Assembly (NCBI GenBank): GCA_001768235.1
Contig: MENK01000008.1
Span: forward strand, 248,001 to 312,000
DNA: 64,000 bases
Direction: 5' to 3'
Source: Bacteroidetes bacterium GWB2_32_14
Lineage (GTDB): Bacteria; Bacteroidota; Bacteroidia; Bacteroidales; UBA12077
The notes below the pieces were generated by a model, which saw only the letters and a program-made list of their open reading frames with translations, did no database searches and had not been told where the DNA came from. Each line of letters starts with the position of its first letter. Position 1 is the stretch's first letter. Positions 6,282-39,505 of this stretch are shown one piece after another. A program made the position numbers and the translations under genes.

Positions 6282-6641
6282 ATGAAAAAGACACTTGTTT
6301 TAGGAGCAAGTCCAAATCCAACCCGGTTTTCTTACAAAGCAGTTAAAAGCCTTGTTCGCCATGGGTTCGAAGCAGTACCCATTGGCAATCGTAAAGGGCA
6401 AATTATGTGGCAGGATATTATTATCGGAAAACCTGAACTTTCTGATATACACACTGTAACAATATATCTTAATCCTGAAAATCAAAAAGAATACTACGAT
6501 TATATCATCAACCTGGCGCCAAAACGTATAATCTTTAACCCCGGTTCAGAAAACCAGGAACTTATACAACTTGCAATGGAAAACAATATTGAGGTATCTA
6601 TTGCATGTACACTTATTATGCTAAACACGAATAATTATTAA
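6282..6641 (+). CDS. CoA-binding domain protein (YccU-like)
   Basis: A 119-aa single-domain protein. The start (KTLVLGASPNPTRFSYKAV) is the Rossmann-type nucleotide loop of the CoA_binding_2 family, and the rest (GFEAVPIGNRKGQI ... TIYLNPENQKEYYDYIINLAPKRIIFNPGSEN) keeps the family's pattern, including the conserved N-PG. Members bind CoA, but no precise reaction is known for stand-alone proteins. Its stop codon overlaps the next gene's ATG by one base, so the two genes are probably cotranslated. Confidence 0.85.
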   Translation: MKKTLVLGASPNPTRFSYKAVKSLVRHGFEAVPIGNRKGQIMWQDIIIGKPELSDIHTVTIYLNPENQKEYYDYIINLAPKRIIFNPGSENQELIQLAMENNIEVSIACTLIMLNTNNY

Positions 6642-7009
6642 TGATACCATCAATAAATAGTTTACCGGATTTTAACGAATCAATTTCGCAAGACAAAGCT
6701 GTGCTTTTTTATTTTTCTCACCAGTTATGTAATGTGTGTAAGGTATTAAAACCCAAAATTGAAGAGTTGCTTAACACTGAATTTCCGCAAATGCGAATGT
6801 ATTATTGTGATACCATGGAACATCCTGAAATTGCAGCTCAGAACTCTATATTTGCTGTGCCAACACTGGTTATTTATTTCGAGGGAAAAGAATACATTCG
6901 CAAAAGCAGAAACTTTGGGATTAATGAATTACAAAATGAAATTGCCCGTCCTTATTCATTATTATTTAGTTGTACGCAAGCCGAAAAAATGACACAGCAG
7001 CCAGATTAA
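6641..7009 (+). CDS. Thioredoxin-family protein
   Basis: A 122-aa cytosolic thioredoxin-fold protein. The active site Cys-Asn-Val-Cys at residues 30-33 follows a predicted strand (VLFYFSHQLC), and the cis-proline motif FAVPTLVIYFEGKE is at about residues 70-84, as in thioredoxin. The CNVC dipeptide differs from the common CGPC, so its redox potential and partners may differ. It overlaps the CoA-binding gene by one base, which suggests a shared role, perhaps protection of CoA thiols; that is inference. The C-terminal tail after residue 105 is not conserved. Confidence 0.88.
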   Translation: MIPSINSLPDFNESISQDKAVLFYFSHQLCNVCKVLKPKIEELLNTEFPQMRMYYCDTMEHPEIAAQNSIFAVPTLVIYFEGKEYIRKSRNFGINELQNEIARPYSLLFSCTQAEKMTQQPD

Positions 7010-7030
7010 CTGCTGATTTAAAAGACAAAA

Positions 7031-7120
7031 ATATGCCAACGCACAAAAACAAGAGTGTTCCAGCCCGTCCCACGACCATCCCATCGCTTCCACACACTTG
7101 TTTTTCTTGCCTACGCACAC
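7031..7120. repeat. Structured cassette-boundary-like element A upstream of the NTPase gene
   Basis: The 150-nt gap before the NTPase gene holds a 14-bp inverted repeat with one mismatch (7045-7058 against 7092-7105). It also holds a direct repeat, TGCCAACGCACA at 7034-7045 and TGCCTACGCACA at 7108-7119. The GC-rich centre contains AGCCCGTCCCAC (7062-7073), which recurs with one change at 10493-10504 beyond the far end of the same gene. The CCAACGCACA 10-mer also recurs there. This looks like a recombination or insertion boundary rather than a promoter. Confidence 0.5.
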
Positions 7121-7159
7121 CAGATTGAGGATTAAACTTATATCTTTTAGATTTTAGTT

Positions 7160-10100
7160 ATGAGAAATGCCTATAGTGGATATACTTATCAAAAGCATGT
7201 AACTAAATTGTTATTGAGCAAAATGGACGTTGAGCGTTCAATCGATAAGATTGAAATTGAGGCTGATGTGAATAATAAATTTGATGATGCTAAAATCTCA
7301 TTCGGAGATGTAGAATACTATTTTCAAATTAAAGATTTTGAAGGGATTTCATTAGATGACCTTGTTTTATCTGATGGAAATATTAAAATTCGTGGAAATA
7401 GCCATAAACTTTCCGATGCAAAAAATATTCTGTTTTTTAAAAGTATTCCCTTAACTCCTAATTGTGAAATATTAGGTTTTCCAGCTTTTAAATTGTCTGA
7501 TATTTATATTGTTTCATTTAACCGTTCTCAAATAGACAAGAAAATAGCCGAGTTTTACAAGAATGACACACTAAGAAAACAGGAAATCGAAAATTGGTTT
7601 CATGAGTGCTTAGATAAGCGCGAGTGGATTCTTTTAAGGGAGGATTTACCTTCAATAAAAGTATTTAACACGGAGCTCCAAGAGAAAACGATTGACACAG
7701 GTAGAAAACATCTTCAAATACACAACTTGTTATTGATTGAAGGGAAACCAGGTGTAGGGAAAAGCCATTTTGTGAATAGTCTTACTAAAGAATACAATAA
7801 ATCAATTTTATATCGATTTTGGATTAGTAGTCAAGACGAAGACTACGAAAAAAGATTAAAATTTAAAAACTTCATTTTTGATTTCTCAAAAAAACTATTC
7901 AACGACCAAAAATTCAGAGAAATAAGTGAAATATTTAAGGAGATTAAGAAAAGACAAAAAACAGTTATAATTGATGGATTAGACCACATTGAAAACTATA
8001 ATCTACCTGAGTTTGAATTATTCATCGATTTTATAAATAAGTTAAAGAACTATTGTAAAGTAATTGTACTATCACGACCTCTACAGAAAAAGCTTGAATG
8101 GGAAAAATTCAACTTGATTAATTGGAATGAAAAACAAACCCAAAAAGTTCTTGATGAACTATTTCATATTTCAGATTATCAGATTTTTAAGAAAATATAT
8201 TCAATCACTGATGGCTATCCTATATTAGTTAAATATATAGCGGAACATTACAAGCTTTACAAAGCTATTCCAAATTTAAATAAACTTGAAAGTGTTGATA
8301 GTTACTACAATAACTTGATAAAGCAGGAAAAGGGAAAACAATTATTATCGCTATTTCTATGCAATCGTTCTTTCTTCATGAAATCGGAAATCATTCAGAT
8401 TTTGGATGAAGCCGCAAATTATGTGAATGAGTTTATTGAGGAACATCCATATTTATTTGAAATCAGGTTAAATAGAATTTCTTTATTTCATGACAGTTTT
8501 AATACTTTTTTGCGCAAACAGAAAATCGACTATTCTTCTATCTCAGAAAAAGTTAATCTATATGTTTATAATTCTATTCAAAGCATAGATAAAAGGTTCT
8601 TATCTCGTTTCAATTACTTCTATCTTGATAATCAGTACAAAAAAGACATTATTCTGAAGTATTGTCAGATAAGCACTTTTAAGGAATTGATTCAAAATGT
8701 GATTGACTATGAAGCAATACAATCATTCTATTTTCAAATAAGAGAAGCGATAAATGCTTTGAATTATGAAGATTTAGAAATAACTCATTATTACGATTTA
8801 TCTTTAATTTTAAATATTGTAAGCAGAGACCATATTTCAACTCTTAATGCCTTATATTATACATATACTAAAGCTCTTTTAGCCAATGGTTTTTCAGAAG
8901 AAAACATTACAAGTACAAGGTACTTATTTGCAATGTTGTGTTATATAAAGTCGAATGATTCAACATTACTCTTCAATATAACCAGTGATGATATGTATTC
9001 AACAGAGCGGTTTTCCGAAAATTTGCAAGATGAAATCGATACAGAGGATTATTTTTTTGACCAACATGAAAAGGCTTTAACAGAAGAAAGGTTAGATGAA
9101 TTAATTCAAGATAAATTAAACTTAAAGGATATTGTTACATATAGTTTAGAAAATTCATTTATTCACGGAAATACAACAGGCTCATTTTCTGTTTTACACG
9201 ATTGCATAAAGCTCTACATATCTGGTAAAGAAGATATTGCGATAAACAAATTAGCTTCATTTCTTAAGCCATATAGCTCTCAAGAATATTATTCTAATTG
9301 GACATTAAAAGATGCTAAAAGAAATATTCTTGCTTATGGATATTTACCAGAGATAAATGACTATAAGAAGTTGTCTCTACGTGATTTTATTCTTGCGCGA
9401 AAGGATTTAGGTAGTTTCGATTTGAGAGATGAAATTCACAATTTTATACGTTTATCACTACAGGAATCAAGAAAAATAGATATATCCAATATTTCACCTT
9501 ACTGGACTAAATATTACCAACGTAAAGATTATTCATTTATTAACCTTGATACAGCACTATATGAATTTGAAAAAAAATGTTATGTATCTAAGTTTGAATG
9601 CATAGAACTTATTCATAAAATTCAGGAGATATCAGAAAAAGGATATAGAGGATTGCTATCAGGTTTTGTAGAACTATATCCTCCACACGAGATATTGCCT
9701 TTTATTCTCGAAAATTTTGACATAGAAAGCCTGAGAATAGAATGGTTTCATTTACCTGTTGACTATATAAACATATTTCCTGACCAGATTTTTAATTTTG
9801 CTTTAAGTGAAATATTAAGATATCATAATTATAATAAAGAGATTGATTTAAATGATATCTTGAATGTGCTTTATTCAAATAGGTTGAATGAATTAGCGCA
9901 GATTTTAGAAATTACAAAATATTCAATTCGTGTCCCTAAATCCCATTCAATTATTAAGGAATTTAAAAATAGTAAATTAAGCTTTGTTCAATTTGAACCA
10001 GATAAATATGAATATAAAGATGATAGTCAAAGTCGTTTTAATAGGGGGGAGTTAACGATTAAAGACAAAGAATTTATATTAAGCAATAATATCAAATCTT

Positions 10101-10381
10101 ATGAGGTTGCTGGATTTTCTAACGGCTATCATTCTGCTTTAGCTGATACTGAACTGTTTGAAATTTATACAAAGAATGATGTAAAGGATAATTTCAAGCA
10201 AATTTTATATAATGCATTGTTGGGAAAAACAAAAAGCATAAATTTTTTTCATGACGTTTATAATTACCCAAGCAATGTATTAAAAATGGTTCGTGAGTAT
10301 GAGATTGATGTTGATTATGATATACTGTTTAACAACTTTTTAAACTATCTGGATATATCTCAGTTTTCATTAAAAAATTAA
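7160..10381 (+). CDS. Nuclease-like domain fused to STAND/NACHT-like NTPase; candidate antiphage defence protein
   Basis: A 1073-aa soluble protein. Residues about 1-95 resemble a Cap4/DUF4297-type PD-(D/E)XK nuclease: YSGYTYQKHV start, Glu34, Asp43 in NKFDDAKIS, then FQIK with Lys58. An NTPase follows, with Walker A GKPGVGKS (195-202), Walker B TVIIDGLDHI (268-277, the DGLD form typical of NACHT/STAND ATPases) and a sensor-like VIVLSRPL near 300. The remaining 600 residues are helix-rich with no motif I recognise, probably sensor repeats. This order (N-terminal nuclease, central STAND NTPase, C-terminal repeats) is that of Avs-type defence proteins, but this one is shorter than most Avs. The gene stands alone between structured elements, and its very A/T-rich coding differs from the neighbouring core genes. 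Function as defence is inference. Confidence 0.72.
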   Translation: MRNAYSGYTYQKHVTKLLLSKMDVERSIDKIEIEADVNNKFDDAKISFGDVEYYFQIKDFEGISLDDLVLSDGNIKIRGNSHKLSDAKNILFFKSIPLTPNCEILGFPAFKLSDIYIVSFNRSQIDKKIAEFYKNDTLRKQEIENWFHECLDKREWILLREDLPSIKVFNTELQEKTIDTGRKHLQIHNLLLIEGKPGVGKSHFVNSLTKEYNKSILYRFWISSQDEDYEKRLKFKNFIFDFSKKLFNDQKFREISEIFKEIKKRQKTVIIDGLDHIENYNLPEFELFIDFINKLKNYCKVIVLSRPLQKKLEWEKFNLINWNEKQTQKVLDELFHISDYQIFKKIYSITDGYPILVKYIAEHYKLYKAIPNLNKLESVDSYYNNLIKQEKGKQLLSLFLCNRSFFMKSEIIQILDEAANYVNEFIEEHPYLFEIRLNRISLFHDSFNTFLRKQKIDYSSISEKVNLYVYNSIQSIDKRFLSRFNYFYLDNQYKKDIILKYCQISTFKELIQNVIDYEAIQSFYFQIREAINALNYEDLEITHYYDLSLILNIVSRDHISTLNALYYTYTKALLANGFSEENITSTRYLFAMLCYIKSNDSTLLFNITSDDMYSTERFSENLQDEIDTEDYFFDQHEKALTEERLDELIQDKLNLKDIVTYSLENSFIHGNTTGSFSVLHDCIKLYISGKEDIAINKLASFLKPYSSQEYYSNWTLKDAKRNILAYGYLPEINDYKKLSLRDFILARKDLGSFDLRDEIHNFIRLSLQESRKIDISNISPYWTKYYQRKDYSFINLDTALYEFEKKCYVSKFECIELIHKIQEISEKGYRGLLSGFVELYPPHEILPFILENFDIESLRIEWFHLPVDYINIFPDQIFNFALSEILRYHNYNKEIDLNDILNVLYSNRLNELAQILEITKYSIRVPKSHSIIKEFKNSKLSFVQFEPDKYEYKDDSQSRFNRGELTIKDKEFILSNNIKSYEVAGFSNGYHSALADTELFEIYTKNDVKDNFKQILYNALLGKTKSINFFHDVYNYPSNVLKMVREYEIDVDYDILFNNFLNYLDISQFSLKN

Positions 10382-10419
10382 TTGATTATGAATAGAAGAT
10401 TATCCAACACCTTTTGCAT

Positions 10420-10530
10420 CCCTTTGCTCTCAGGCACATTTGGCATTCCCGCAAAGCTTGCGCTCAATCCCAAAATGCCAAAAGAGCCTTCAAGCCCGTT
10501 CCACTCCAACGCACAGTTTGAGAGACAATA
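10420..10530. repeat. Structured cassette-boundary-like element B downstream of the NTPase gene
   Basis: The sequence just after the NTPase stop has a perfect 9-bp inverted repeat, TTTGGCATT (10439-10447) and AATGCCAAA (10474-10482), around a GC-rich loop. It then has AGCCCGTTCCAC (10493-10504) and CCAACGCACA (10506-10515), both also present in the element before the gene. Small reading frames across it have no coding character. Confidence 0.45.
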
Positions 10531-10565
10531 CATTAAAAATGAGATAAATAGATTAGAAAACAATA

Positions 10566-10735
10566 ACGGCCAGCGTACAACACGCGGTATAAAACATTGG
10601 GGGTTAAGTGGTTATGTAAACAGTATCTCTCGCATCAAAGTTGGTTGTACCTTGATAGTGAAGTGTCTCCGAACTCCCCAACGATTTCATACCGCCATCA
10701 GTTAGCTGCAACCCTGAAAATGTGGTCTCCGATGA
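10566..10735 (+). repeat. attC-like intergenic element C between NTPase and RibD-like genes
   Basis: This part of the 430-nt gap between the NTPase and RibD-like genes carries the exact 15-mer ACAACACGCGGTATA (10577-10591), followed by AGTGGTTATG, and near its end ATACCGCCATCAGTTA. The element at 36284-36421 has the same 15-mer, then AGTGGTATG, then ATGCCATCAACCGTTA, in the same order when read in the direction of its genes. An inner pair (CATTGGGG near 10596 and CTCCCCAACG near 10675) gives inverted-repeat potential. Bases 10736-10811 are plain A/T-rich leader of the next gene. Confidence 0.55.
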
Positions 10736-10811
10736 CAAATAATCGTCAAGAAGTTTTCAAATCAAACAAAAAGGATGAGATTATTGTTTTAAAGTCAAAA
10801 TTGATAGCAAA

Positions 10812-11378
10812 ATGAGAAACTTAGTATATTTTATGCATTCATCACTTGATGGTTTTGTTGCCGGATCAAATGGTGAAATGGACTGGATAACTGTTGATGA
10901 TGAAATATTTGATTTTGTTACAACAATGACAGACCAAGTCGATACAGCGTTATATGGTCGAGTGACATATCAAATGATGGAAGCATACTGGCCAACAGCA
11001 GGTGAACAGCCTAATGCAAGCAGACACGACAAAGAACATTCAATTTGGTATAAAAACGTTTCAAAGGTTGTTTTATCAAAAACAATTAATGAAACTGGAT
11101 TATTGAATACAAAAGTCATAAGTGACAATCTTTCTGAAAATATAAACAAATTAAAACAACAGTCAGGTAAAAACATATTGATTTTTGGTAGTCCAAGAGC
11201 TTCTCATTCTCTTTTAAATCTTGGATTAGTAGATGAATTTTGGATTTTTATAAATCCAATTTTATTAGGACAAGGTATTCCATTATTTAAAAATGTTCAG
11301 GAATTAATTAAACTAAGACTCTTGGATACTAAAACATTTACTTCTGGTGTAGTTGCACTTCATTATAGGAAAGAATAG
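10812..11378 (+). CDS. Dihydrofolate reductase-family protein (RibD C-terminal-like)
   Basis: A 188-aa protein of the RibD_C/DHFR-like superfamily. The start RNLVYFMHSSLDGFVAGSNGEMDWI is the family's opening strand and loop, ALYGRVTYQMMEAYWP forms the nucleotide-contact region, and IFGSPRASHSLLNLGLVDEFWIFINPILLGQGIPLF is the conserved C-terminal half. Relatives are NADPH-dependent reductases of unknown substrate that are often found as isolated accessory genes, so true folate or riboflavin roles should not be assumed. It lies between two structured elements (10566-10735 and 11402-11570) and is the only gene between them, which fits a single-gene cassette. Confidence 0.85.
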   Translation: MRNLVYFMHSSLDGFVAGSNGEMDWITVDDEIFDFVTTMTDQVDTALYGRVTYQMMEAYWPTAGEQPNASRHDKEHSIWYKNVSKVVLSKTINETGLLNTKVISDNLSENINKLKQQSGKNILIFGSPRASHSLLNLGLVDEFWIFINPILLGQGIPLFKNVQELIKLRLLDTKTFTSGVVALHYRKE

Positions 11379-11401
11379 AAGGACAAACCACTTTACAATA
11401 A

Positions 11402-11570
11402 GAAAAACTATAGGGCAGCAGCTAACAGGCAGCACATGGCCAATGCGGGTTTCAGATGTTTGCAATATTTGTAGTTTTTTGGTAGTTTTGGTCACGGTGG
11501 ATAGAGATGCGGTTATAAATCCCGCACAACACGATACCATCGACCGATATACTGTCCGATGCAGGATAGT
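11402..11570 (+). repeat. attC-like intergenic element D downstream of the RibD-like gene
   Basis: The 356-nt gap after the RibD-like gene contains GGCAGCACATGGCCAATG then GCGGGTTTCAG (11445-11455), close to CCAATAAGGGTTTCAG of the reverse strand of the element at 36284-36421. It also has ATCCCGCACAACACGATACC (about 11520-11538), similar to the GCACAACACGCGGTATA start of that element. GCGGG (11445-11449) and CCCGC (11521-11525) can pair across it. It is the most divergent member of the set. Overlapping reading frames here look non-coding. Bases 11571-11734 are A/T-rich and lead into the Mla operon, with a TACCTTTC (11697-11704) near the -7 consensus. Confidence 0.4.
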
Positions 11571-36283: not shown

Positions 36284-36421
36284 GTTTATAACGGTTGATG
36301 GCATGACCAGTAAGGGTTTGCGGGTGTTTTCTGTCAAGTTACACGAAAAGATGATGCGGGCAAAAACCTTTCGCATACCACTGAAACCCTTATTGGCTAT
36401 ACCGCGTGTTGTGCGTTCGTG
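36284..36421 (-). repeat. attC-like intergenic element F
   Basis: Nearly the whole 156-nt gap is one structured element. ACCAGTAAGGGTTT (36306-36319) pairs with AAACCCTTATTGG (36384-36396) around a GC-rich centre. Read on the minus strand, in the direction of the genes, it begins GCACAACACGCGGTATAGCC (15-mer at 36398-36412 identical to 10577-10591) and ends ATGCCATCAACCGTTA. It sits between the subtilase-VWA stop and the small orphan gene, the same position relative to transcription as the element at 10566-10735. Confidence 0.65.
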
Positions 36422-39400
36422 CTATTCTTTATTTAAAAAATTATAGTGACAAAAACACTTTATTAATGAATCAATATCAAAACCATTTTTTTTCAACCTT
36501 TCTTTTGCACCCTTGTCCATCGTTCTTTTTAAACAATTCAGGAATTTACAGATGGTAACATGAAATGGATTTTGACTAGTATCAGTGGATGATGTCGGAG
36601 CAGGAGCATCACCCCCTTTCCAAATAGCTGCGGATAAAACCTGCTCACGTGTAAAAGGCAGATTACGGGAAGTAAATCCATTTGCTTGAACAGTAAATAC
36701 ATATACACCTTGGTAATCTGCTCGAAGCTGGGTTTCATATATGCCTGATGAAACTTTATTTAAAGTGATAGTATTTACCGAACCATCCGGCATAATATAC
36801 GATGAAATCACACTTGTATCTTTTATCAGTGGTATGCCGTACTCAGTGATAAGGCAGCGTAAACTGATAGTGCCACCAGGTTCATATGAGTTTTGTGAAA
36901 GAGTACAATTAATGCGAAGATTTGAATATGCATGAACCAGTGCCGTAAATTTTACACCATGTACAACAACTTGTTGATACTGATCTTTAGATTTCTTGAG
37001 TTCTGCCAGGTAACGCTTATAATACTTTTGATTCACTTTAAGCAAAATATTCCACTGACCGTTCTGTTCGTTTATTCTGGTGCCATCACTTACCGGCAGA
37101 GTCATCCTGTAATAGGTAACCTGTGTTCCGTCAACCTTTTTAACTGTAGGAAACGAAGCTAGATTTGAATCTTCAATGATGTTACCTTCTGGTGTTTCAA
37201 TAGAAACGTCAATCAGACTCTGAATGGGCATCATCACTATTGCATCGACAGAGATATCTGTTTCATTTAGATAAAATGGAATCTTTATCACAGAATTAGG
37301 GACAACATACCCATTGGGATCAACCACAATCTGTTCATTATTAACGCCTGCTTGTATTTGAAGAAAATATTTGGCAAGCTTAAAGGTATCATCATTGTCC
37401 AGTTGGTCCGTTAAAAGCAGATAACCATTGTGGTTGTTGCATATACTATTTAGTGCTGCTGCGTTTAGTACATCGGCAGTGCCTAAGCCTACTGCAAAAA
37501 CTTGCTCATCAATTAGCGAACTTACATCAGCAATAAATTTCGGCCTATTTTCGCACCCATCAGTAAATACTATCATTGCTTTTTTATCGTAACCTGTAAT
37601 CCCCGATAAGTTATTGTGCCCTCTTTCTATTCCATCCCCTATTGAGGTCCAACCATTTGGATTTGGAGCATAATTTGATAAAGCATTAAATGCGCTCACG
37701 TGAGCGCTATCAAAGACATCTTCTGGAGTACCAAATGGACCAGCAAGTGGATTTAATAGATCATATGAATCTTCATCAAAAGTAACTATCCCCACACCAT
37801 TATTCTCGCGTATACAGGACAAGAATATACTAGTTGAATATTTTAAGACTTCCGATCTGAGTTTATTCTCAATTCCTGAATCCCAATTCATACTGTTCGA
37901 TTTATCCAAAACCAGCATCATTGCACAAGTGGGGCGTGCAATCGTATTTGCAGTAATAGTCACATCGAAAACGTCTCCAGTAGTGATACAGCGAACTTGA
38001 GCTGTTGAATTTGCGGTGTCACCGGCATTCGTCCCGGTATATTTCACCCATACAAAAAACGAACGTGGCAAATTATAGTTTGTTGTTTTGCCCAGTATAA
38101 TGGGGCCGCTGTAATTATGAAGACTGAATGGTGCACTTGGAGATACAGTCACTTCCAGTTCTGTTTGGTGAAAACTGTTTACATCTATTCTGATCGCTCG
38201 AAGTTGTGTTTCTCCTTCAGGTATGTCAATAAAGTTGAGATTTGTTTGAATTGACGTCAATTCCCATCCAGCTTTGGCTACTGCTTCTGCAGCGTTTATT
38301 CGTCCATATCCCCAGTCATTGTTGAATATGTCAGAGCCAAGTTTAACTGCGGTGTTTTGAATAACATCACGTACTTGTTCGTTGGAAAGGCGCGCTTCAC
38401 GACTCCAGACCAATGAAGCCAAACCAGTAACATGAGGTGTAGCCATTGATGTTCCATCCCATTCTACAAAGTCATGGGCGGTGTCTCCATTTACATCATA
38501 GGTTGGAAAAGTCGAAAGAATATTCTTACCAGGAGCTACTACTGAAACGGCTGGGCCAACATTGGAAAAATCTGTTACTTCATCCGAACTATTGGTTGCA
38601 CCTACTGCAATAACGCCTGAGAAATCTGCCGAGTGGATGGCAGGTGTGCGTAAATCCCCGCCATCATTACCAGTGGCAACGCAAAGTACCATCCCATTAT
38701 CATGCGCATATGCACATGCATCACGTAATGTTTGATTGTCAGTAAACCAACCTGCGCTTAGGTTGATAACTAAGCGTTTATTGTTAGCAATTGCATAATC
38801 AACAACTTCTTCTACTGCTGCTTCAAAATCTGATTCAGAACCGTTGCCAGAGTCGTCAAAAACTTTGCATACATAAATTTGCGAATTCCAATTCACACCT
38901 GCAATACCTGAATTATTGTTAGTTTCAGATCCAATTGTTCCACCCACATGTGTTCCGTGTCCGTGTCCATCGGCTGGCAAGTTATCATCATTTACAAAAT
39001 CGGTACCAAGAATATACCTGCTAGTGTCATTTAAGTCTGGGTGAGTAAGATTAGTTCCATCATGTGAGATACCAGTGTCTAGTACTGCAACCAGTACATC
39101 AGTATTACCTTTTTCCAAATCCCAAGCATCTTCTGCATCAATCATGGTTAAAGCCCATTGCTCACTATACTTTGTGTCGTTCGGAGTTGCCAACACATTA
39201 GTTATTGTGTCAGGTTCGGCATAAGCGATATCCATTCGTTTACTTAGTTCTTCAGTGAACATTAGAATATCTGTACCTCCAGAAACTGATAGGACAATTT
39301 TCCCAGTTTTCAGGTTAAACCTATGCACAGAAGTGCCTTTCAATAATTTAGTGATTTCTTCAACTTTCTTTTTGAGCTCTTTTTCATCCTGTTTGCCTTT

Positions 39401-39505
39401 GCTGATCTTAAGTTTTACATTCAGCCTATCAGTGCGGATGTCAACTTTTTTTCCTTTCCATTCAACTGTAGTGAACGGAATGCGTTTTGATTTTTTTGTT
39501 TTCAT
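36422..39505 (-). CDS. Subtilase (S8) fused to von Willebrand A domain
   Basis: A 1027-aa protein. Residues 1-115 form an inhibitor-like propeptide (KIVLSVSGGTDILMFTEELS ... MDIAYAEPD). The S8 domain has the full triad Asp143 (AVLDTGIS), His183 (GHGTHVGG) and Ser353 (GTSMATPHVTG), plus oxyanion Asn280. A linker domain (about 420-520) leads to a VWA domain whose MIDAS motif DKSNS is at 534-538 (MMLVLDKSNSMNWDSG, later IVFTDGC). The last 300 residues look beta-rich, ending with a Cys-containing tail. There is no signal peptide and no T9SS C-terminal domain, odd for a subtilase. I take it as a single intact protein; its target is unknown. Confidence 0.88.
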   Translation of the reverse strand: MKTKKSKRIPFTTVEWKGKKVDIRTDRLNVKLKISKGKQDEKELKKKVEEITKLLKGTSVHRFNLKTGKIVLSVSGGTDILMFTEELSKRMDIAYAEPDTITNVLATPNDTKYSEQWALTMIDAEDAWDLEKGNTDVLVAVLDTGISHDGTNLTHPDLNDTSRYILGTDFVNDDNLPADGHGHGTHVGGTIGSETNNNSGIAGVNWNSQIYVCKVFDDSGNGSESDFEAAVEEVVDYAIANNKRLVINLSAGWFTDNQTLRDACAYAHDNGMVLCVATGNDGGDLRTPAIHSADFSGVIAVGATNSSDEVTDFSNVGPAVSVVAPGKNILSTFPTYDVNGDTAHDFVEWDGTSMATPHVTGLASLVWSREARLSNEQVRDVIQNTAVKLGSDIFNNDWGYGRINAAEAVAKAGWELTSIQTNLNFIDIPEGETQLRAIRIDVNSFHQTELEVTVSPSAPFSLHNYSGPIILGKTTNYNLPRSFFVWVKYTGTNAGDTANSTAQVRCITTGDVFDVTITANTIARPTCAMMLVLDKSNSMNWDSGIENKLRSEVLKYSTSIFLSCIRENNGVGIVTFDEDSYDLLNPLAGPFGTPEDVFDSAHVSAFNALSNYAPNPNGWTSIGDGIERGHNNLSGITGYDKKAMIVFTDGCENRPKFIADVSSLIDEQVFAVGLGTADVLNAAALNSICNNHNGYLLLTDQLDNDDTFKLAKYFLQIQAGVNNEQIVVDPNGYVVPNSVIKIPFYLNETDISVDAIVMMPIQSLIDVSIETPEGNIIEDSNLASFPTVKKVDGTQVTYYRMTLPVSDGTRINEQNGQWNILLKVNQKYYKRYLAELKKSKDQYQQVVVHGVKFTALVHAYSNLRINCTLSQNSYEPGGTISLRCLITEYGIPLIKDTSVISSYIMPDGSVNTITLNKVSSGIYETQLRADYQGVYVFTVQANGFTSRNLPFTREQVLSAAIWKGGDAPAPTSSTDTSQNPFHVTICKFLNCLKRTMDKGAKERLKKNGFDIDSLIKCFCHYNFLNKE

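Follow-up and report, generated by a model that had tools for sequence, protein, structure and literature searches.

The question raised by this locus is what a solitary gene of 1073 codons, in which a putative nuclease is joined to a STAND NTPase, does among the conserved genes of a Bacteroidales chromosome, and by which vehicle it came to lie there. The gene (7160–10381, + strand; an uninterrupted frame opening with ATG) is found in a stretch of 64,000 nucleotides from Bacteroidetes bacterium GWB2_32_14 (GenBank assembly GCA_001768235.1, contig MENK01000008.1, forward-strand positions 248,001 to 312,000), hereafter the window, to which all positions given without a contig or locus refer; it is present as one copy in its own genome. 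A preliminary description, made from the letters alone, had presented it as a candidate defence system within a cassette-like accessory block. The answer that we consider probable is that the encoded STAND protein is a single-protein, Avs-like antiphage system acting by abortive infection and carried on an integron-type cassette.

Three parts can be told apart in the protein. The predicted N-terminal nuclease domain (7160–7663, + strand; residues about 1–168) carries E34, D43, Q56 and K58; the STAND NTPase, its winged-helix part included (7682–8524, + strand; residues about 175–455), carries the Walker A motif GKPGVGKS at residues 195–202, the motif DGLDH at 272–276 with D272 and D275, R306, GYP at 352–354 and HD at 444–445; the C-terminal helical region (8525–10378, + strand; residues about 456–1073), delimited by the secondary structure of the model and by its lowest conservation, is the presumed sensor. 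In a full-length alignment of 11 members, namely the window protein and ten relatives 27–49% identical to it (L002, one each from Kapaibacterium, Flavobacterium and Lachnospiraceae, three from Chryseobacterium, L014 of genome G928, and two from viral contigs), E34, D42, D43, Q56, K58, K196, K201, S202, D272, D275, R306, G352, P354, H444 and D445 do not vary between rows; E34, D43, Q56 and K58 are also invariant in a 13-row alignment of the N-terminus, which includes two partial copies. The nuclease pattern and both Walker motifs thus stand where the preliminary description had placed them. A sensor-1 arginine, together with the GxP and HD motifs of the winged-helix part, defines the STAND proteins, and the features of this superfamily (Walker A, an hhhhD-x-D Walker B, sensor-1 R306, G352-x-P354 and H444-D445) are present in all 11 members.

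At the level of Pfam the STAND protein matches generic NTPase families only: NPHP3_N lies above its cut-off (30.1 against 24.8 bits, residues 249–306), the other matches, nSTAND3 (24.6 bits; cut-off 27.2) and NACHT (21.8 bits), being sub-threshold. Mean pairwise identity among the 11 members is 57% over residues 1–60, 38% over 61–180, 55% over 181–310 and 33% over 851–1073, and the share of invariant positions in the same segments is 28%, 7%, 25% and 3%; the C-terminal part from residue 456 onwards, with 3–6% invariant positions, is the least conserved of the protein. The earlier statement that no C-terminal sensor is recognisable therefore holds as far as Pfam is concerned, but the helical region occupies the usual place of a STAND sensor and is the part that varies most.

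The full-length AlphaFold model (mean predicted local distance difference test score, pLDDT, 83.3; predicted template modelling score, pTM, 0.71) shows the last 600 residues mostly as helices, as had been expected from the sequence. When this model is compared with the Protein Data Bank (PDB) by Foldseek, ranks 1 to 5 are taken by two chains of Avs3 (best E 6.7e-10), the STAND-TPR protein 6mfv and two chains of Avs4, in agreement with the domain plan of Avs proteins previously proposed; the TM-scores of these matches are low and their root-mean-square deviations large, and the superposition over the whole chain is therefore poor. In the VIA-align comparison of the whole model the rows are filled by the NTPase domain, so that the C-terminal half is barely probed. 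Residues 1–185 were also modelled alone (pLDDT 82.9), and here VIA-align returns HerA-DUF4297 (Z 9.7, 142 residues, 3.7 A), LmuA (9.6), Cap4 (9.1), HamA (9.1) and Avs3 (7.4); indeed, rows 1–12 (Z 7.4–9.7) are all Cap4/DUF4297-type nucleases of defence systems, other nucleases following at Z 6.5 or less together with another LmuA entry at 6.4. In this model E34 follows the strand 30–33, D43 precedes the strand 44–48, and Q56 and K58 lie on the strand 51–58; such a layout of E...D...QxK is the usual PD-(D/E)XK arrangement, and nucleases of the Cap4/DUF4297 type share the signature E...D...(E/Q)xK. The N-terminus hence resembles nucleases rather than another fold, and since the 12 best rows are Cap4-like defence nucleases, the E/D/QxK motif is not due to chance. 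The models, with a nuclease fold, a STAND NTPase and a helical region, support the interpretation of the gene as a candidate defence gene.

Comparison with characterised systems places the STAND protein close to Avs3 (AVAST type 3, PDB 8dgc), with which it has in common the N-terminal Cap4-like nuclease, the central STAND NTPase and the long helical C-terminus, and which is both the best whole-model Foldseek match and a match of the isolated nuclease domain (Z 7.4). The two differ in that the Avs3 chain has 2028 residues and the STAND protein 1073, a disparity already pointed out for Avs proteins in general, and in that no sequence kinship between them is detectable in sequence searches of the PDB. 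With Cap4, HerA-DUF4297, LmuA and HamA (rows 1–11, Z 7.9–9.7) the fold is shared, with E...D...QxK on the expected strands. Known Cap4/DUF4297-like nucleases are fused to a SAVED domain or have a helicase or SMC-like partner; in the STAND protein the nuclease is instead fused to the STAND NTPase. PADLOC-DB 2.0 yields no match to an Avs model at E<=0.1, and the protein is therefore not filed under Avs1–5. The trigger of Avs3 is the terminase, according to an excerpt of PMC12724215; GiPD474, from the same paper, was dropped as a comparison, being a ParA-like ATPase. The nSTAND3 domain is reported in Avs5 in a section of PMC12931631; proteins of the Avs5/nSTAND3 kind are likewise STAND defence proteins, the domain being sub-threshold in the window protein, and the effector of Avs5 is a Sir2 NADase where the window protein has a nuclease.

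On these likenesses we infer nuclease activity, trigger recognition, oligomerisation and abortive infection or cell death, in the following way: an invader protein would be recognised by the C-terminal helical region; the STAND NTPase would then exchange its nucleotide and oligomerise; oligomerisation would bring the N-terminal Cap4/DUF4297-type nucleases together; and these would cut DNA without strict sequence specificity, the infected cell dying or stalling. What the sequence itself establishes is the order of the domains, the invariance of the active-site and NTPase residues, the solitary gene and, for the vehicle described below, the cassette start, its attC and the uninterrupted trx–mlaE junction of relatives. 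The same domains could also be read as directed against foreign DNA, such as plasmids and conjugative elements, as Hachiman, Lamassu or Wadjet are, with a helical region sensing DNA ends or a protein of the mobile element, rather than a phage protein, and a nuclease destroying the element. That the nuclease domain is no farther from LmuA (Lamassu) and HamA (Hachiman) than from Cap4, that the NTPase structure also resembles the DNA-binding ATPases Cdc6/Orc and MuB/TnsC, and that members occur in islands and, in one case, at the end of a prophage, all speak for such a role; the GxP and HD motifs, the winged helix and the long helical C-terminus are, however, the plan of STAND proteins, Avs and STAND-TPR proteins head the whole-model matches, and the AAA+ likeness is common to all these ATPases, so that we regard this alternative as unlikely, although the least unlikely of those considered here.

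The distribution of the STAND gene is sparse and patchy, which speaks for the defence reading. Within its family the gene occurs in one genome of 25, and in the class sample in one of 395, in both cases the genome of the window itself; it is found in two of 393 sampled from the order (the same genome and G047), and, by profile, in three of 395 sampled from the phylum, once as two fragments. Ten loci were recovered when genome contigs were searched with an alignment of two sequences. No homologue was returned when viral contigs were scanned with the single protein, whereas alignment-based scans of viral contigs revealed two carrying relatives; collections of plasmid and phage records contained none when queried with the window protein and the Lachnospiraceae member. 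The member L002 (G047) and L006 (Bacteroidales bacterium STD2_118) seem to be one locus, since the length of 1084 residues, the start and the upstream gene agree. L008, L010 and L011 match at the N-terminus only, and the latter two run into the edge of their contigs; the Proteiniphilum copy L008 (L008:9989-10975) has a stop after 328 residues, with a match that ends at residue 297, and an open reading frame (ORF) of 1576 residues comes next; this copy is probably a truncated member. As in the window, where the gene had been described as standing alone, the relatives are single genes of near-constant length.

To survey the neighbours of these genes, ORFs were listed for 11 loci and for L017, and ten neighbours were run through PADLOC and nine through Pfam. 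The homologues are not consistently placed in housekeeping loci: known or candidate defence genes lie near the STAND gene in six of the nine larger loci (L003, L004, L005, L009, L012 and L013). In L005 a Gabija system follows downstream (PADLOC: GajA E 7.9e-146, GajB E 1.7e-190), and L009 and L012 have, in the same place, unscanned ORFs of Gabija-matching lengths with closely similar starts; L012 has in addition an upstream group of four genes, with a weak JetD match only (6.6e-6). In L013, a viral contig, the STAND gene is directly preceded by PDC-M65B and directly followed by PDC-S25 (SIR2); a nearby block in L003 holds two C5-methyltransferases (MTase_II), and an Upx-like gene lies near the gene in L004. 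L017 is the end of a prophage, in which phage structural, holin-like and lysin-like genes (by eye) and two serine recombinases precede the STAND gene; with it, seven of the nine loci lie either near known or candidate defence genes or at a prophage end.

Several observations weigh against a defence role of the kind proposed. The neighbours scanned were picked by eye and without a null model, and the three Chryseobacterium loci are not independent; two loci have no defence gene among the neighbours tested or recognised, L006 showing an upstream ATPase among genes that by eye look ordinary, and L007 showing accessory genes with, by eye, a MazF-like ORF. In the protein itself, residues 61–180, the second part of the nuclease, are conserved no better than the C-terminus (7% invariant). 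The Foldseek match of the nuclease is weak, with no row under E 0.001 (the best, at 1.0e-3, is LmuA), and VIA-align Z values of 7–10 are moderate; PADLOC gives three weak matches to the STAND protein, the best at E 4.7e-4. Sequence searches of solved structures, finally, yielded no relative, so that the assignment of the nuclease rests on the predicted fold and on the invariant residues.

The second half of the question concerns the vehicle. The STAND gene lies between conserved genes, porU, porV, ispF and a thioredoxin-like gene (trx; 6641–7009, + strand; Pfam Thioredoxin 6.2e-13) upstream and mla genes downstream, and 4.7 kb separate trx from mlaE (11723). An mlaE match was obtained in 16 of 18 other genomes searched within the genus, and all 16 loci were fetched; in every one the order porV, ispF, CoA-binding gene, trx, mlaE is found with about 100–200 bp between trx and mlaE, and both the STAND gene and the RibD_C gene that follows it in the window are absent. 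In four loci fetched from the sister genus, porV, ispF and trx were not found beside mlaE. By eye, the trx genes of the relatives stop 1–3 residues from a conserved F near the end, about where the insertion begins, and the trx frame of the window extends 12 codons beyond S110, with the break at TTATTTAG^TTGTACGC; its last 12 codons are thus cassette-derived. Could the STAND protein then be a non-defence regulator or a signalling ATPase with housekeeping duties, whose PD-(D/E)XK-like fold is incidental? Its position among porU, porV, ispF, trx and the mla genes, and the metabolic look of the gene in the second cassette, would suit such a function; but the locus is an insertion absent from all 16 loci fetched from the genus, the homologues are rare and patchy and have no constant neighbours except Gabija in the three Chryseobacterium, and the nuclease residues are strictly conserved, which makes it very improbable.

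The borders of the insertion are those of integron cassettes, in which the opening bases have to pair with the R'' core of the cassette's own attC. At the left junction, G^TTGTACGC at 6969, nine nucleotides are complementary to the R'' core (10574–10581) of an attC-like site at 10573–10709 (+ strand; 118.5 bits with R1, a covariance model trained on 20 sites, this one among them), and the STAND cassette is therefore taken as 6970–10701 (+ strand; 3732 bp, from the TT after the left-junction G as far as the G in the right attC core). Inverted repeats at 7045–7105 and 10432–10489 within it are not recognised as attC-like. The second cassette (10702–11546, + strand, its right end tentative) contains the gene of the RibD_C/DHFR family (ORF 10812–11378; RibD_C 1.1e-24); its start, GTTAGCTGC, is complementary over nine nucleotides to its own R'', GCAGCTAAC, in a divergent attC-like site at 11425–11554 (+ strand; R1 42.5 bits, E 2.4e-7, outside the training set), the last core of which is GATATAC and not GTT. 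Between this last site and the conserved region upstream of mlaE, the segment 11547–11650 (about 100 bp) has by eye no counterpart in the relatives; it is possibly the remnant of a third cassette. Rfam at its gathering thresholds detects nothing in the window.

The repeat family of the site at 10573–10709 recurs on contigs C12, C36, C23 and C22 of the same genome; on C12, C36 and C23 nearly all longer ORFs have one orientation, with attC-like sites between them. With R1, 66 attC-like sites at E<=0.01 (the 20 training sites among them) are found in the 3.66-Mb genome, and sites at E<=1e-5 occur in 21 of 24 genomes of the family, this one counted. The 66 stand in arrays and singly, on C12 (L033), C13, C5, C23 (L035), C36 (L034), C22 and C4; besides the two cassette sites, the window itself has one (36284–36416, - strand; 105.4 bits, mostly in the training set), downstream of a subtilase-VWA gene of 1027 codons (36422–39505, - strand; Pfam Peptidase_S8 1.7e-51 and VWA), and GTTGGGCGT upstream of that gene fits the site core ACGCACAAC at 8/9 positions by eye. 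R1 finds no convincing site in the 13 loci of the STAND relatives (best E 0.92), so that among these the STAND gene is a cassette only in the present genome.

Whether the block might be an ordinary insertion, a transposon or an island, whose palindromes are terminators or unrelated repeats, is decided mainly by covariation and by the complementarity of starts and cores. Individual sites fold no better than shuffled DNA (z -0.5 to -1.0), and the case for attC rests for this reason on the other two lines. Among the 20 aligned sites, two-sided changes occur at 15 of the 17 stem pairs. On C12, where the sites were delimited manually, start and core are complementary over 9–10 nucleotides in eight of eight cassettes; under an automatic rule applied to 59 cassettes of this genome and of G006 and G013, two genomes of the same genus, the run reaches at least 7 nucleotides in 52 and at least 9 in 49, as against at least 7 in 168 of 3422 mismatched pairs, three bases being fixed by the anchor. 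The seven cassettes below 7 nucleotides are counted as failures, even though for no fewer than four (C12 and C36 with one each, C23 with two) the rule picked a GTT lying beyond the one that fits. The folding result, the unaccounted 100 bp after the last site, the departure of its core from GTT and the want of an integrase above the TIGR02249 cut-off would all fit an ordinary insertion; set against the start–core complementarity, which spans nine nucleotides in both window cassettes, the paired stem changes and the uniform orientation of ORFs with sites between them on C12, C36 and C23, they leave it scarcely credible. The STAND gene block, called cassette-like in the preliminary description, is on this sequence evidence literally a 3.7-kb integron-type cassette, recombined into the end of trx together with the RibD_C cassette.

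The search for a recombinase able to serve these sites leads to a candidate. No recombinase of the genome passes the TIGR02249 cut-off of 265; the best, of 381 residues, at the end of contig C2 (G000:C2:61428-62570; L038:7429-8571) and with no site seen beside it, reaches 213.4 bits, in two stretches that leave out profile positions 180–237, which we take to be the location of the IntI-specific added domain, and narrowly exceeds the cut-off of NF040815 ('site-specific tyrosine recombinase/integron integrase'; 221.6 against 220). Its homologues in G006 (C34, L138:1919-3106; 66% identity) and G013 (C10, L141/L142; 43% identity) lie immediately upstream of arrays of 27 and 19 sites, respectively, and in the same orientation; in both, a first cassette start complementary to the first attC is seen by eye between the integrase stop and the array. 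Shorter arrays of the same orientation follow the homologues in G009 (C72) and G017. Against a fixed layout speak G016 and G002, where the single site in the vicinity has the opposite strand, and the flanks fetched in G010, G023, G014, G020, G008, G007 and the genome of the window contain no site, several contigs ending nearby. With homologues counted at E<=1e-40 and sites at E<=1e-5, 14 of 24 genomes have both, seven have sites only, one (G008) a homologue only and two neither. The C2 recombinase is a candidate non-canonical integron integrase.

Ten proteins of the genome from attC arrays or from beside attC-like sites, chosen by size and eye, were also scanned; clear PADLOC matches were obtained for an AriAB (PARIS) fusion (3.7e-111), PDC-M48B (3e-152), SoFic (3.5e-46) and a subtilase-like protein (1.4e-21), and of the remaining six, three gave weak matches and three none. 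The AriAB fusion and PDC-M48B genes adjoin (L035:4387-6303 and L035:6484-7368, both - strand), and a protein of 1081 residues between attC-like sites (L034:1064-4309, - strand) has no Pfam or PADLOC match at E<=0.001. As other cassettes match AriAB, PDC-M48B and SoFic, the cassette collection to which the STAND gene belongs plausibly serves defence.

Defence genes on integrons are otherwise known from Vibrio chromosomal integrons, whose antiphage cassettes are reviewed in PMC12409362; according to that review, streamlining has kept the defence systems on integrons small, and larger ones of >2 genes are absent. The present collection is similar in carrying defence-like genes as attC-bounded cassettes, and differs in including a 3.7-kb STAND cassette, in the Bacteroidales host and in a candidate integrase below the integron-integrase cut-off. 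Transcription of the integrase toward the array, an atypical arrangement, has a precedent in the chromosomal integron of Treponema (PMC3607928), the integrase there being a recognised intI; intI genes are listed in the Bacteroidetes/Chlorobi group in a portion of PMC2426708. Neither a compact Cap4-STAND family nor a Bacteroidales integron was found described in the literature searched, in which subscription papers were mostly outside the scope, so that their absence in print is unproven.

We regard this compact Cap4-STAND family, which in the present genome is carried by an integron cassette of unusual size, as a variant beyond the known systems. If the protein works as proposed, sensor, switch and nuclease would be united in one gene of 1073 codons, about half the length of the Avs3 chain, a size that would favour structural studies and allow one to ask how far an Avs-like sensor can be shortened. 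For the family as a whole, a wider proposal seems to us evenly balanced between true and false: that these Bacteroidales carry a chromosomal integron missed by current tools, in which a XerA/IntI-like recombinase without the canonical integrase domain is transcribed toward an array that acts as a mobile bank of antiphage genes and includes full-size NLR-like sensors (3.7 kb), with cassettes also jumping to secondary sites such as the end of trx. Two fields that rarely meet, NLR-like immune sensors of bacteria and integrons as banks of defence genes, are joined at this locus; if the vehicle works in this way, defence cassettes can far exceed the sizes described, and integrons may be overlooked in Bacteroidota, because the customary criterion for the integrase does not recognise them.

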